Origin: a bacterium
GTDB lineage: Bacteria > Zhuqueibacterota > QNDG01 > JAFGCO01
Assembly: GCA_016932575.1 (NCBI GenBank)
Contig: JAFGCO010000021.1
Span: 1-40,626 of the forward strand
Length of the DNA stretch: 40,626 bases
Direction: 5' to 3'
Every line of letters starts with the position of its first letter. The first letter of the stretch is position 1. Position numbers and translations under genes: made by a program. The notes beneath the pieces were generated by a model. That model did not search any database and was not told the origin of the DNA. It worked only from the letters and a program-made list of their open reading frames with translations. Shown here in pieces: positions 14,488-24,596 of the stretch.

Positions 14488-15615
14488 TTATTTAACAAAC
14501 ATCACCTTCTCTGTCTTGTTTACGGATCCGGCATTGAGAACCAGTATATAGACGCCATTGGGTACAGATTGCCCTTTGCGATTCTTTCCATTCCAATATT
14601 GCACATAATTGCCTGCATCCAGATACTGATTGATAATAATGTCATCAACGGTTTGTCCCAGAATATCCACGACACGGAGTGTCACCTGACACCCTTCGGC
14701 AAGCTGATATCGAATCTTTGTATTCGGATTAAAGGGATTCGGCACTGCGGGAAGCAATTCAGTGGCATTTGGAATCACATGCTCTGTCACCGTTATATCA
14801 ACGACCTCTTTCACAGTAATATTTCCATTAAAATCCACATCGGAGAGACGATAAATATATGTATCTCCGTCAAATACATGTGTATCCGTAAACACATATT
14901 CCGTACGGCCTGACGTGTTGCCCTGCCCTTTCAATTCATTGTTATTTTCGTAGCTGGCAATGGTGATCCAGTCCGCTTCACCTTTACGCTGCCTTTCAAG
15001 AATGAAACCCAGGTTATCGGTTTCACTCTCTGTGGCCCAGGAGATCTTTACACCTGTCTCTTCGATTACAGCACTTAAAGTATTCAACTCCACAGGCAAC
15101 GACACATCGGAACCGGCGAGGATTCCACGGCCCTGTACATCCTCGTAGGCGAATTCATGCACATCGAATGTATAATTGCTGTGCACGGATATCTTGACCC
15201 ATCCGTAATAAGGAGTCGAGCTGATCAAAAATTCTACGCCAAGAAACTTGTTGCTGACACCCAGCCAAGGACCGCCCCCATTCCAGGCAAGGGCCGATCC
15301 GATAAAATTCATCCCCGGACCGATCAATGCGCCGGAGTTTAAAACCGATGCAAAATTACGTGTCCCGGCATACCCGATCGGATCTCCGTCATCCCATACA
15401 ATGAGATGATTACTAGTAGAAAGTGAAATCGATAAATCTCGATCCACACCATCAAAATCAATTCCATAATGCGTTTGATTGGTGACATTCGGTGTAGATT
15501 TGTGCACAGCTCCCTTGAGTAAAGATGAAGATGCACCAGCCAGGATAATTCCCGCAACCGTAGAATACTCCAAAATCCGTTTTTCCAGATCCGACTTCCC
15601 TGCATCAGTATTCAT
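14488..15615 (-). CDS. T9SS-type secreted protein with an N-terminal YSTVAG leader
   Basis: A 375-residue cargo-like protein with no enzymatic motif. The N-terminus (EKRILEYSTVAGIILAGASSSLL) is an atypical leader: a hydrophobic stretch after about 15 polar residues. The middle (YGIDFDGVDRDLSISL..., YYGWVKISVHSNYTFDVHEFAYED) resembles Bacteroidota surface proteins that share a Y-S-x-x-A-G leader. A fibronectin-III-like domain follows (about 185-275, VELNTLSAVIEETGVKISWATESETDNLGFILER). The end is a clear type A sorting domain from PNPFNPN (about 292) to VMFVK. GGAG lies nine bases upstream of the ATG. A terminator follows downstream. The likely location is the cell surface or medium; the function is unknown. 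Confidence 0.85.
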   Translation of the reverse strand: MNTDAGKSDLEKRILEYSTVAGIILAGASSSLLKGAVHKSTPNVTNQTHYGIDFDGVDRDLSISLSTSNHLIVWDDGDPIGYAGTRNFASVLNSGALIGPGMNFIGSALAWNGGGPWLGVSNKFLGVEFLISSTPYYGWVKISVHSNYTFDVHEFAYEDVQGRGILAGSDVSLPVELNTLSAVIEETGVKISWATESETDNLGFILERQRKGEADWITIASYENNNELKGQGNTSGRTEYVFTDTHVFDGDTYIYRLSDVDFNGNITVKEVVDITVTEHVIPNATELLPAVPNPFNPNTKIRYQLAEGCQVTLRVVDILGQTVDDIIINQYLDAGNYVQYWNGKNRKGQSVPNGVYILVLNAGSVNKTEKVMFVK

Positions 15616-15689: not shown

Positions 15690-17681
15690 TTATTTTTTAT
15701 TCAGCTTATCGAGGATCAATTGATGCCGTGCTGCGTTTTCAGGCTGTCTTAATTTTCTCAAGTAGAGATGAACAAGCATGCGATGCACTCTCGCGTACCC
15801 GGGCGCCATCATTGCGCAGACTTCCAGAGCTTCAATCGCCCGATCATAACGATTCAGTTTGGCCAGGGCCATTCCCAGATGATAATGCGCCAAAGGAAAG
15901 TGATGGAGCAAACCCACTGCATTCAGCGCGTACGATGCGGCTTTTTCATATTGATGCTGGCGCAGATAAACCTGGGCAAAACCGTCATGGGCAATATGGC
16001 TGTCAGGATCAATTTCCAGTGCTCTGAAGTAGGCGCGCTCAGCATCCTCAAAGAGACCCATACGCATATAGGCCTGTCCGATATGCTGATGCAGGGTCGG
16101 CATCCGCGGTTCGGCCTTTTCCGCCTTTTGGAGCAACTCAAGTGCCTTCGCAAACTGTTTCTCAGCCAGGGAGAGTGATCCCAGAAGCAGATCAAACTGA
16201 GGATGATGTTTCTTTTCCTTGTTGATGAAATGCTCGATGACGCGCCGGCTGTCTGCAGTTCGTCCGAGGGATTCATAACATTTGGCCAGATGATAGACGT
16301 ACCGAATTTGATCCGAATGCTTTTCAACCAGTGCCTCCAGAATGGGAAGAGCCTCATGAGGCAAATTTTTATTCATATACACCCTGGCCAGGTAGAATTT
16401 CGATTCATTGATCGTCCGGTCAATGGCCTTCTGAATATCTTTTTCCGGTTTATCCATGTAGCCAAGTGCGATGAGCTGGTTCATGGCCTCCTGTTCGGCA
16501 TAAGGATCCTGCTGTAATTCAGTACTGAGCATGCCGCACTCACCTTTGATCTCCTCCCAGCTTTGAATCGTTTCCGGTATAAAAGGTTTTTCAAAAGACT
16601 GTATCAGTGGTTTGCCGTCCATATCCTGTCCGATGGGCAATCCAAACAAAGTGAGAATTGTAGGCGTGATATCCAGAAGACGCGCACCATAGATGCGTTC
16701 ATCGTGTCGCACATGCGGTCCGCTCATACAGAAAATACCATAGGACCGATGCTGCCAGGCCGGACCTGCAGGTTCCCTGGGGATTCCCCGGGGACGAAGA
16801 TGATCTGAATGGAACCCGTGATCCGAAACCAGAATCACGGTCGCATCTTTCCCGGCCAGTTCGAGCAACCGGCTGAGCATCATATCGTGATACAGATACG
16901 CGCCGGTGACAACCCCCTTATAAATGTGGAACATTTCTTCGGGAACATGCGGCATTCTCGGCGGATGATAATTCATAAATCCATGGCAGAAATGATCAAT
17001 GGCATCATAATAAACCGCCATGAAATCCCAGGGTTCATTTTCCAGAATCCAGGTGGCTGCCATGTGAACGGTCGAGCAATCCGCAATCGCTCTGATTAAC
17101 GATTCCAGTTTTTTATCTTTTTCCTGATTCACCTTGGCGGCTTCAGGCACAAAAGGCAGAATGTGGGCCGCAGTCAGTTCAGATGGATGTATTCGCAATT
17201 CATCAAATATCTTTTCCTTTGTATCTGGATATACGGTTCCCGGACGCATGGGCCATGGCTTATCAATAGGCGCATGGGCCCGCTGATAAAAATTCGAGAT
17301 GCAAATACCATTGATGGGTTCTGCGGGATGACTGGGCCACCACCCAACGACATGCGTTTTGAATTCCTGTTGTGTGAGAATATTCCAAACCGCCTTCACC
17401 TTACGAGAAGAGGCCATGACCGGACGGATGCCTCCTTTCTGCGGTGCAGGTTCTGTAAAGTTCAGTATGCCGTGCTTATCTGCATGCATCCCTGTTGCGA
17501 TGGATGTCCACAGCATGGGTGAAATCGGCGGATCCAGCGTAGCGATATTTCCCATAACGCCCCTGTTCACAATGCTTTCCAGCGCAGGCATTCTTCCGCT
17601 GTCCAGGAGGGGATTGATGATTCTCCAATCCGCGCCATCCCACCCGACAAGAAGCACCTTTTTAGCCATACGCTCACCCAT
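15690..17681 (-). CDS. Type I phosphodiesterase/nucleotide pyrophosphatase family protein with C-terminal TPRs
   Basis: Alkaline-phosphatase-superfamily hydrolase of 663 residues. Seen: metal aspartate D15 in KVLLVGWDGADW; the nucleophile region PPISPMLWTSIATG (S54 sits where Thr/Ser nucleophiles lie) followed by H70 in DKHGI; YYDAIDHFCHG; VSDHGFHSDH; and about six tetratricopeptide repeats from roughly residue 415 to the end. No signal peptide is seen. The ATG at 17681 was chosen because AGGA lies eight bases before it and it overlaps the stop of the preceding micro-protein gene by eight bases (ATGGGTGA). Longer in-frame starts would run through that gene. The family hydrolyses phosphodiesters or phosphonates; the TPR part suggests recruitment to a partner. 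The substrate is unknown. Confidence 0.88.
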   Translation of the reverse strand: MGERMAKKVLLVGWDGADWRIINPLLDSGRMPALESIVNRGVMGNIATLDPPISPMLWTSIATGMHADKHGILNFTEPAPQKGGIRPVMASSRKVKAVWNILTQQEFKTHVVGWWPSHPAEPINGICISNFYQRAHAPIDKPWPMRPGTVYPDTKEKIFDELRIHPSELTAAHILPFVPEAAKVNQEKDKKLESLIRAIADCSTVHMAATWILENEPWDFMAVYYDAIDHFCHGFMNYHPPRMPHVPEEMFHIYKGVVTGAYLYHDMMLSRLLELAGKDATVILVSDHGFHSDHLRPRGIPREPAGPAWQHRSYGIFCMSGPHVRHDERIYGARLLDITPTILTLFGLPIGQDMDGKPLIQSFEKPFIPETIQSWEEIKGECGMLSTELQQDPYAEQEAMNQLIALGYMDKPEKDIQKAIDRTINESKFYLARVYMNKNLPHEALPILEALVEKHSDQIRYVYHLAKCYESLGRTADSRRVIEHFINKEKKHHPQFDLLLGSLSLAEKQFAKALELLQKAEKAEPRMPTLHQHIGQAYMRMGLFEDAERAYFRALEIDPDSHIAHDGFAQVYLRQHQYEKAASYALNAVGLLHHFPLAHYHLGMALAKLNRYDRAIEALEVCAMMAPGYARVHRMLVHLYLRKLRQPENAARHQLILDKLNKK

Positions 17682-17868
17682 TATTGGGTTCCTGATCTGC
17701 TTTTTCCGATAGCGCTTCGATTTCCTTTCGTTTTTTGCGCCATGCGAGAAGCCCCATGGCCCCAAGCGCCAGAATGCCGAGGGAACCTTCGTAGGGAATG
17801 TGCTGATAAAATGACTCAAATGAATCGAAATCAAGAGTTTCCAAATCAGGGATAACAGATTCTGGCAT
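17674..17868 (-). CDS. 64-residue single-pass membrane micro-protein
   Basis: A tiny gene directly upstream of and overlapping the phosphodiesterase-TPR gene, implying translational coupling. The product has an acidic N-terminus (DLETLDFDSFESFYQ), a short Gly-rich membrane segment (28-43, GSLGILALGAMGLLAW) preceded by IPYE, a basic stop RKKRK and an acidic tail. The IPYEGSLG...WRKKRK layout resembles PEP-CTERM/PID-CTERM sorting signals, but there is no N-terminal signal peptide and no sortase in the window. The positive-inside rule predicts the C-terminus in the cytoplasm, next to the soluble phosphodiesterase. Start: the ATG at 17868 has AGGA eight bases upstream; ATG 17877 and TTG 17892 are alternatives. 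Proposed role: a membrane tether for its neighbour (inference). Confidence 0.72.
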   Translation of the reverse strand: MPESVIPDLETLDFDSFESFYQHIPYEGSLGILALGAMGLLAWRKKRKEIEALSEKADQEPNNG

Positions 17869-20579: not shown

Positions 20580-21515
20580 TTAGAACCGTTTCTGATACGC
20601 ATGACAGTACGGCTGTTTTCCTGTCTTTTCATAATAATCCTGATGATAATCCTCGGCTTTCCAGAATTTAACGGCTTTGAATATCCGGGTTGCCACATCA
20701 TATCCTTTTTTCTTCAGGATGCTGATCAGTTTTTGTACTGCTTTCTTTTCAGCTTCTGTATTGTAGAAGACTGCCGAATGATACTGCTCGCCGATATCCG
20801 GACCCTGACCGTTTTTCTGGGTAGGATCATGAATCTCAAAGAAATACCGTGCAAGTGTTTCATAAGTCACCTTGTCAGGATCATAGGTCACTTCCACGGT
20901 CTCCAGATGACCGGTATTTCGATAACTCACATCCTCATAGGAAGGATTCTCTTTATTCCCTCCCATATATCCCGAAACAGCAGAAACAACCCCTTCATGC
21001 TGTTCAAACAGATGTTCAACACCCCAGAAACATCCGCCTGAGAAATAGGCTTTGGCCCTCTGAGGGATTTCTTCAGCCGGTATAAATTTCAGCGAGATCG
21101 AATTGACACAATGCCGCAAATTCTTCGGAGTCAGCTCTTCCCCTTCAAACACGTGCCCCAGATGAGCGCCGCAGTTGGCGCATATAATCTCGGTTCGAAT
21201 GCCGTCCGCATCCGGAATACGTTTTACAGCACCCGGCACTTCATCATCGAAGCTGGGCCAGCCGCAGGCGGATGCAAACTTATGCTCGGATTTATACAGT
21301 ACCGCATCGCATTGTCTGCACAAATAACGGCCTTTTTCAAAAAAATCATGGTACTGACCGGTGAATGGCATTTCCGTGCCTTTATGCACAATCACACGTT
21401 CTTCTTCCGGTGTGAGCGGATTCATTGTTTTTTGATCCATCATTGTCTCCTCACCGCCTGATAATATACCAAAAATGAGACTGGCTAAAACCAGAACAGA
21501 TAATTGGTTTTTCAT
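20580..21515 (-). CDS. msrAB: Exported bifunctional methionine sulfoxide reductase MsrB-MsrA
   Basis: Repairs oxidised protein methionine: the N-terminal MsrB part acts on the R sulfoxide, the C-terminal MsrA part on the S sulfoxide. The 311 residues begin with an export signal (MKNQLSVLVLASLIFGILSGG), so it should act in the periplasm. MsrB shows GTEMPFTGQY, zinc cysteines C66/C69 and C112/C115, C84 in CGWPSF, HLGHVF and catalytic C136 in RHCVNS. MsrA shows nucleophile C162 in GGCFWG, SGYMGG, the YDPDKVTYETLARYFFEIHDPTQ block and a C-terminal cysteine in PYCHAY. The ATG at 21515 has AGGA seven bases upstream and starts the signal peptide; the longer frame lacks such a site. The enzyme probably takes electrons from a membrane thiol system not seen here. 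Confidence 0.94.
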   Translation of the reverse strand: MKNQLSVLVLASLIFGILSGGEETMMDQKTMNPLTPEEERVIVHKGTEMPFTGQYHDFFEKGRYLCRQCDAVLYKSEHKFASACGWPSFDDEVPGAVKRIPDADGIRTEIICANCGAHLGHVFEGEELTPKNLRHCVNSISLKFIPAEEIPQRAKAYFSGGCFWGVEHLFEQHEGVVSAVSGYMGGNKENPSYEDVSYRNTGHLETVEVTYDPDKVTYETLARYFFEIHDPTQKNGQGPDIGEQYHSAVFYNTEAEKKAVQKLISILKKKGYDVATRIFKAVKFWKAEDYHQDYYEKTGKQPYCHAYQKRF

Positions 21516-21977
21516 CACATCTTCCTTCCGCCCGATCAAATTCAAACCATCCTGTAAACACATTTCACTTAATACTGTAATACTTCAAGGAAGCAGAAGG
21601 GTTCCCGGATTTAAGAAAATTCTGATTTTATAACAGGTCATTACTTAATTCTAATTTTTATATTGACAGCATTTGATAAAAGCTCTATATTTAAACGCTG
21701 CATCATTTTTAAAGACTTTGGAGATAATAAAAACGTGTTGAACTGTTAATCTCGAAGATTTTGAATAACACCACTCAGCTGTAACAATTGATCCTATCTT
21801 TAATTTGAAATTCATTTAGAAGTAACAAGCATTGCCCTTGTTACCTATCACCTTCTCTGTTAATTCTCGTACGGATCAATACCACGACGAATTGATACTC
21901 CAAAATCCTTGAAGCATCTCAGGTTTAAGGACAGATGAATATGAAAAATTCATATTCAAAAAAAGGAGGATGAAAAA
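21516..21977. other. Divergent spacer between msr fusion gene and beta-helix gene
   Basis: About 460 bases of AT-rich sequence with no gene. It holds one excellent sigma-70-like promoter on the plus strand (21663-21691), which would leave a leader of about 280 bases for the downstream gene. No known riboswitch fold was recognised in that leader. Confidence 0.5.
21663..21691 (+). promoter_or_regulatory. Sigma-70-like promoter, TTGACA-N17-TATATT
   Basis: A perfect -35 hexamer, the ideal 17-base spacer and a five-of-six -10 hexamer. It points towards the beta-helix cargo gene 280 bases downstream. The prediction rests on consensus only; some FCB lineages use a different promoter consensus. Confidence 0.5.
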
Positions 21978-23867: not shown

Positions 23868-24596
23868 TCAGGGAATCGGATAAACGGCTCCGGCTGTTGC
23901 TCCTCCCGGGGGCCAGACGACTTGCTTTACAAAATCACTGCTATTCTCTTGCTGCCACTGAATATATACCATATCATGGCCTATCTGAAGACCATGGTTC
24001 TCTTCGCTTGTATCAAACTTGATATGACCATAGCAGGTTAGTATATCCAACCTTTCGAGGGCGTTAATAACAGCCTCTGTGTTTGTTGTTCCCGCATCAA
24101 TAATAGCCTTCTGTAAGATCAAGCCAGCCGCATATCCGCCTATGGAATGATAGGATGGCTCTTCATCATAAGCAGACACATAAGCCTGAAAAAATGTCTC
24201 TCCCAGAGGACCGAACCAAACCGTGTTGGTCGCTCCTATTGATTCAGGTGAAAAAGAAACCTGGGGTTCCCACTGGCTCGGACCGATAACACCGAGTGCA
24301 GCATTACCAATATTCGAGAATTCCGGTTCCGCCGGTGCAACCAGCAGAGCGAGAAATTTGATCTCCGCCTGACTCTCATTCAGGGCCAGTGTAAGGTCGC
24401 GGCCATCCTGATAGTGACGACCACCCAATACGGCTTCGGCGCCGGTGTTTATAATTTTATCAACGAATATTCCAAAATCGATTGTTCCCGCCTGATAACC
24501 GTCAAAAAGTAAAATTTCTCAACCCAATGCCTCTGCATACGTTCTGGTGGCTTCAACAACAATAGTTGAAAATTCTGTATCCTCTCGATACAAGAT
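23868..24596 (-). pseudogene. Truncated ABC-transporter amino-acid binding protein (LivK-like) remnant
   Basis: The minus strand encodes the C-terminal half of a periplasmic binding protein of the branched-chain amino-acid/amide type: ILYREDTEFSTIVVEATRTYA, then QAGTIDFGIFVDKIINTGAEAVLGG, YHSIGGYAAGLILQKAI and HGLQIGHDMVYIQWQ, ending normally at VYPIP. The N-terminal half with the signal peptide is missing; homology begins directly after the hisF stop codon. A TGA at 24521-24519 also interrupts the frame after YAEALG. The remnant is in the same frame as hisF. No transporter permease or ATPase gene is nearby. It is therefore a decayed fragment, probably left by a deletion or recombination that placed hisF at its left end. 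Confidence 0.85.

Follow-up and report, generated by a model that had tools for sequence, protein, structure and literature searches.

The window, the whole stretch of 40,626 nucleotides that was analysed, carries three adjacent genes on its reverse strand. The first in reading direction, at 17674-17868 (-), encodes a micro-protein of 64 amino acids (MPESVIPDLETLDFDSFESFYQHIPYEGSLGILALGAMGLLAWRKKRKEIEALSEKADQEPNNG, then the stop codon), which is composed of an acidic N-terminus (net charge -7), the motif IPYE, a 16-residue Gly-rich hydrophobic stretch and a basic end, RKKRK, and which looks like a detached PEP-CTERM tail. It is followed at 15690-17681 (-) by the gene for an alkaline-phosphatase (AP)-superfamily hydrolase of 663 amino acids with C-terminal TPRs, here called PDE-TPR. 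The two genes share eight bases, ATGGGTGA (17674-17681, -), which hold the stop of the micro-protein and the start of PDE-TPR, and the 64-residue frame ending eight bases inside the enzyme gene is thus confirmed as the first-pass annotation of this DNA had described it. The third gene, at 14488-15615 (-), begins 74 bases downstream of PDE-TPR and encodes a surface protein of 375 amino acids, a member of what we call the YGW family. Elsewhere in the window, an MsrA-MsrB fusion (PF01625, PF01641) is encoded at 20580-21563 (-). By eye, a 186-aa ORF at 23868-24428 (-) resembles a periplasmic amino-acid-binding protein reduced to its C-terminal part, without the N-terminal half, and is possibly a pseudogene.

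PDE-TPR matched PF01663 over residues 9-291 (E=2.9e-26; 93.3 bits against a cut-off of 23) and its TPRs span about residues 420-646, which agrees with the earlier description of an AP-superfamily enzyme fused to TPRs. D15, S54, D229, H233, D287, H288 and H311 are invariant in 17 homologs, and we take these residues to be the catalytic set of metal ligands and nucleophile, with roles assigned by the family pattern. The protein has no signal peptide, and its frame begins straight in the first catalytic strand. The start is supported by the N-terminal M-x-E-R, which is kept in the homologs at loci L012, L013, L096 and L105. PDE-TPR therefore reads as a cytosolic AP-superfamily enzyme, a putative phosphodiesterase or phosphohydrolase. 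It has the catalytic family and the conserved residue pattern in common with the type I phosphodiesterases/nucleotide pyrophosphatases of PF01663, but differs from these relatives in its predicted cytosolic location, in its TPRs and, often, in a sulfotransferase domain. The nearest solved structure by sequence is that of phosphonoacetate hydrolase (3szy), which is remote (E 7e-4). AlphaFold, run on the single sequence of PDE-TPR, gave a poor model (mean pLDDT 41.8).

The pair of micro-protein and PDE-TPR was found at two further loci. A paralogous pair lies on contig 67 of the window's own genome, G000 (L012), and an orthologous pair in G002, a genome from another family of the same order (L013). 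The micro-protein gene adjoins PDE-TPR in all of the three known cases (two genomes), and both the pair and its overlap, whose conservation in other loci had been named as a point to check, recur in L012 and L013, where the overlap is likewise eight bases, ATGGCTGA. Between L012 and the window, the micro-protein core is 52% identical and PDE-TPR 61%. The micro-proteins range from 64 to 77 aa, have a polar or acidic N-terminus and share the alignment core FYxxIPxEGSLGILAxGxxGxLAWRxK. An AGGA Shine-Dalgarno sequence stands 8 bases upstream of the window's micro-protein start and has equivalents in L012 and L013. Since the paralogous and the orthologous pair keep the same overlap, the micro-protein is not a chance reading frame. 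In codon comparisons of the micro-proteins, pN was 0.27-0.38 against a pS of 0.78-0.80 (saturated), and in the 32-residue core of the L012 and L013 copies pN was 0.095. The micro-proteins also possess a conserved SYxxFY-type N-terminus and an EELKAAR-type C-terminal extension, both of which are missing from ordinary PEP tails. These results, which come from three copies in two draft genomes (G000, 94.5% complete; G002, 95% complete), indicate that the micro-protein is a real, conserved gene under protein-level selection, and the purifying selection implies that the peptide is used.

The micro-protein found nothing above cut-off in the family libraries, where the nearest models were of PEP-CTERM type. 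A tblastn search of plasmids returned no micro-protein and, with the PDE, only remote haloarchaeal AP-family proteins. No PDE-TPR was present in viral contigs; two viral-contig matches to the micro-protein (L017, L018) proved to be a stretch inside a DHH-type phosphoesterase-like ORF and are not relatives. A single-sequence scan of the genome contigs gave only a weak Methylomirabilis TPR match, and a match of the micro-protein profile in G169 was an ordinary VPEPSTLGLLAFG PEP tail.

The Shine-Dalgarno sequence of PDE-TPR lies inside the micro-protein gene. It reads ggagga and ggaggtga in L012 and L013 and agga in the window, and is thus strong in the former and weak in the latter. Translational coupling from the micro-protein to PDE-TPR is plausible. 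However, the fixed stoichiometry that the first-pass annotation had drawn from the overlap is not implied, because the PDE-TPR gene carries a ribosome-binding site of its own.

The proposal that the micro-protein looks like a free-standing PEP-CTERM tail was supported by a profile built from the PEP-CTERM tails of PDE-TPR neighbours in another phylum (see below). In a search of 1541 ORFs, the three micro-proteins were the best matches of this profile outside the seed genes (E 1.5e-5, 3.8e-4 and 2e-3). The match is short, and with the curated PEP-CTERM models the micro-protein does not reach the cut-off (TIGR02595, 11.3 bits against 16; PF07589, 16.5 against 20.7). The definition of PEP-CTERM tails combines a near-invariant PEP with a hydrophobic helix and a basic cluster; the proteins that carry them have a signal peptide and the genomes an exosortase (PMC1569441, PMC3237569). 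The micro-proteins lack the near-invariant Pro-Glu-Pro (IPYE in the window, IPEE in L012 and L013), and their hydrophobic stretch is followed by a basic cluster (RKKRK, RRKK or RRKR) with a net charge of +3 over the first 10 residues. By inspection, none of the three copies has a signal peptide, in line with the earlier reading of the window copy, and none has an exported protein in front. The membrane segment described earlier has a Kyte-Doolittle value of 1.89 over 15 residues in the window copy, which is ordinary, but in L012 and L013 it is marginal, at 1.5, and contains a Gln; the PEP tails used for comparison gave 1.5-2.4. With such a marginal stretch, it is possible that the micro-protein is a peripheral or soluble peptide ligand.

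The first-pass annotation had seen no sorting enzyme in the window, and for exosortase this holds across the whole genome. PF09721 had no match in G000 or G002 (94.5-95% complete) or in three order mates, and 1-5 matches per genome in 12 of 12 genomes of the other phylum, each with one over the cut-off. Given that G000 is 94.5% and G002 95% complete, a missed exosortase is conceivable. Without a PEP, a signal peptide or a detectable exosortase, the micro-protein is not classed as PEP-CTERM; its features are those of a derived, free-standing relative of PEP-CTERM tails. A short contig of G000 (L095, contig 31, 3.6 kb) does encode, at 35-1015, a PEP-CTERM protein of the ordinary kind whose N-terminus resembles a signal peptide. 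The G+C content of this contig is 0.397, compared with 0.453 in the window; it could be foreign, or a hint at a missed exosortase.

The YGW protein consists in part of a YGW domain at 15109-15378 (-; YYGWVKISV...HEFAYEDVQGRGILAG), which is homologous to the PEP-CTERM proteins encoded beside PDE-TPR in exosortase genomes. Its C-terminus, at 14500-14742 (-), is a T9SS type A sorting domain (TIGR04183, 25.4 bits; cut-off 23) and not a PEP-CTERM tail. With a profile of 11 PEP-CTERM YGW proteins of the other phylum from which the tails had been removed, the best matches outside that phylum were the window protein (E=4.8e-17) and one encoded at 4921-6099 of L012 (1.3e-13), and these two flank the two PDE-TPR genes of G000. 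The L012 protein is also T9SS-tailed (TIGR04183, 34.6 bits), as are the YGW proteins read in G000 and G002. Among the genomes of the order, YGW proteins are confined to the two that have the micro-protein, G000 and G002, and occur in 0 of 10 others. A YGW neighbour is not visible at the G002 pair because the contig begins just upstream of the micro-protein; two YGW genes of G002 sit at the edge of a different contig and read outwards. The T9SS translocon protein SprA (TIGR04189) scored 636 bits in G000, was strong in G002 too, and was absent from the four exosortase genomes tested. With a TIGR04183 tail above cut-off and SprA in the genome, the YGW partner is like other secreted T9SS type A proteins, and is unusual only in its origin, since its homologs in the other phylum are PEP-CTERM-tailed.

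Close orthologs of PDE-TPR outside the order were found in one other phylum only, first in G215 in a broad sample of 388 genomes and, on sampling of that phylum, in 12 of 288 genomes. To judge from its wealth of PEP-CTERM proteins and exosortases, this phylum may be Verrucomicrobiota; in Verrucomicrobium spinosum, 65 PEP-CTERM proteins are known (PMC1569441). At 12 of the 15 close PDE-TPR loci, an adjacent gene encodes a canonical PEP-CTERM tail (VPEP or IPEP, hydrophobic stretch, basic end). Two loci have a variant tail beside PDE-TPR (TPPPS in L104; VPDTG in L099, divergently transcribed), and one, L096, has no PEP-CTERM-type neighbour. The neighbour stands immediately upstream on the same strand at ten loci, and the signature YGW...AYED...G...AG is present in most of these PEP-CTERM proteins. 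Taking 6% per locus, the probability of PEP-CTERM neighbours at 13 of 15 loci by chance is about 1e-14. In L105 (G544), the gene of a full-length PEP-CTERM protein overlaps the start of the PDE by eight bases, ATGCCTGA, as the micro-protein does. The first-pass annotation had staked its reading on finding a micro-protein upstream of homologous genes elsewhere: this is the case within the order, but in the other phylum the tail of a full-length PEP-CTERM protein occupies the same position.

In the tree, the three tail-type PDE-TPRs grouped together (100/100) inside the clade that contains the orthologs from the other phylum, which points to a single origin. The larger clade of tail-type and other-phylum enzymes was separated from the outgroups at 100/99, and the exact branching of the tail-type clade inside it was weakly supported (80/76). 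More distant relatives of the PDE from other phyla (L039-L056, about 30% identity) have neither a PEP-CTERM gene nor a micro-protein just upstream, and those that were put in the tree fell outside the clade.

PDE-TPR of the other phylum is mostly 790-990 aa long with a sulfotransferase-like C-terminus, and a scan of two fused proteins confirmed PF13469 in both. At L012 and L013, the sulfotransferase (PF13469) is a separate 186-aa gene just downstream of PDE-TPR; the window locus has no sulfotransferase, either as a domain or as a gene. One genome of the other phylum, G397, contains both a fused and a split copy. These form a tandem of PDE-TPR genes (L102, 2404-5034 and 5874-8594), each with its own upstream PEP-CTERM protein, in which one is fused to the sulfotransferase and the other has it as a separate downstream gene. 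By eye, L105 and L106 (G644) have a similar gene of about 295 aa directly 3' of PDE-TPR-sulfotransferase, with RPPWPDE(L/I)PR near the start of its product, which is possibly a further member of the module.

The sulfotransferase allows a different role for the micro-protein, namely that of a substrate: an acidic-tyrosine peptide (HYxSYxxFYxxIPEE) would be sulfated by a PAPS-type sulfotransferase under the control of the AP-superfamily hydrolase, similarly to RaxX and RaxST. In that system, a small peptide (60-residue precursor) is encoded beside the sulfotransferase (PMC6637879), as in L012 and L013. The micro-proteins of these two loci do have tyrosines among acidic residues, and the sulfotransferase, which is a fused domain in relatives, follows PDE-TPR there as a gene. 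In the window, where it is missing, Phe is found at two of the three Tyr positions (HYxSYxxFY to DFDSFESFY). However, this is one contrast only (n=1), the third Tyr is retained in the window copy, and no such tyrosine motif occurs in the PEP-CTERM tails of relatives with a fused sulfotransferase. The case also differs from RaxST/RaxX tyrosine sulfation in that the window locus is without the sulfotransferase, and sulfation of the micro-protein is hypothetical. We therefore regard a substrate role as unlikely.

We consider it similarly improbable that the micro-protein is a passive remnant, that is, that the 3' end of an old YGW-PEP-CTERM gene now serves as a translated leader which couples or boosts the translation of PDE-TPR, its peptide being inert. 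The eight-base overlap, kept in three of three tail loci and in L105, and the weak Shine-Dalgarno sequence of the window PDE would be expected of such a leader. On the other hand, the low pN (0.27-0.38 against a pS of about 0.78; 0.095 in the core), the SYxxFY-type motif and EELKAAR-type extension that ordinary tails lack, and the strong Shine-Dalgarno sequences of the PDE in L012 and L013 are difficult to reconcile with an inert peptide. Convergence, in which an unrelated single-span micro-protein came to resemble PEP-CTERM tails and stands before PDE-TPR by accident, seems very doubtful. Such short, simple hydrophobic sequence could arise in this way, and the micro-protein is indeed under the curated cut-offs (TIGR02595, PF07589); but it shares position and eight-base overlap with the true PEP-CTERM tail in L105, the micro-proteins are the best matches of the tail profile outside its seed genes, and they co-occur with the YGW partner.

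The explanation that we favour, with a probability of about 0.6, is that the micro-protein is a detached PEP-CTERM tail which became a gene of its own, and was kept after the YGW protein changed its export route; it may dock PDE-TPR at the inner membrane. The matches of the YGW profile and the tail profile mean that the head of the partner (YGW, now with T9SS) and its tail (the micro-protein) are two genes here. In the ancestral state, a YGW protein with a PEP-CTERM tail would have stood directly before a cytosolic PDE-TPR(-sulfotransferase) in an exosortase-bearing phylum. The simplest history would be one transfer of this module into a T9SS lineage, followed by the rise of a new YGW protein with a T9SS tail and the shrinkage of the old gene to its tail, with the overlap at the PDE-TPR start retained. 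The view that a transfer between phyla came first and that fission followed rests on parsimony because of the weak placement inside the clade. Of the exosortase motif, the micro-protein no longer has the second proline, but its hydrophobic stretch, basic end and position at PDE-TPR have been preserved. With no detectable exosortase and a YGW protein without the tail, PDE-TPR is the remaining conserved partner.

TPRs are peptide-binding modules and the PDE-TPR enzyme is cytosolic, so our best guess is that PDE-TPR docks on the end of the peptide that faces the cytoplasm. The tail would insert without a signal peptide in an N-out/C-in orientation (positive-inside), and its cytoplasmic basic end (WRKKRKEIEAL, WRRKxEELKAAR) would dock the TPRs. 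The hydrolase, together with the sulfotransferase in the sister loci, would in this way be kept at the inner membrane, where it may act on a component linked to the export of the YGW protein. Such docking on an N-out/C-in micro-protein is a prediction to which we give slightly less than an even chance. The first-pass annotation had already pictured the micro-protein as a tether that holds the soluble enzyme to the membrane via the TPRs, and as a whole its interpretation is partly supported; it had missed the YGW partner at 14488-15615, the sulfotransferase found in relatives and the likely derivation of the micro-protein from the C-terminal end of a surface protein.

Compared with the PEP-CTERM/exosortase (EpsH) system (Haft 2006, PMC1569441), the micro-protein has a similar short motif, a hydrophobic stretch of about 14-16 residues and a basic cluster, and its locus has tail homology (by the local profile), the YGW partner domain and the gene neighbourhood in common with true PEP-CTERM genes. 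It differs in being a free-standing gene, in IPYE/IPEE, in the extension after the basic cluster and in that no exosortase was found. Some protein families carry LPXTG, GlyGly-CTERM or PEP-CTERM tails depending on the species (PMC3237569), so tail exchange as such is already known. Tail swapping on one family is common to YGW and to GlyGly-CTERM/rhombosortase and other tripartite tails (PMC3237569), but here the new tail is a T9SS domain and the old one survives as a separate gene. In the mostly open-access literature searched, we found no description of a stand-alone tail gene, of a T9SS exchange that leaves the tail behind, or of PEP-CTERM proteins linked to an AP-TPR-sulfotransferase.

Sorting tails are usually viewed as disposable addresses for one reading enzyme. 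A tail that has survived the loss of its cargo and of its sorting enzyme, and that is still tied to a cytosolic PDE-TPR(-sulfotransferase), points to a second, intracellular reader of PEP-CTERM tails. We tentatively suggest, as a possibility that is more doubtful than the docking itself, that PEP-CTERM tails have a second, exosortase-independent function as docking signals for a cytosolic TPR-hydrolase-sulfotransferase partner. The window's lineage would expose this function because the YGW protein moved to T9SS while the tail was kept for the partner enzyme. In two phyla, the trimodular enzyme is now connected with one class of exported surface proteins, and with 64 residues and one enzyme, the window locus may offer a simple system for studying a second reader of these tails.
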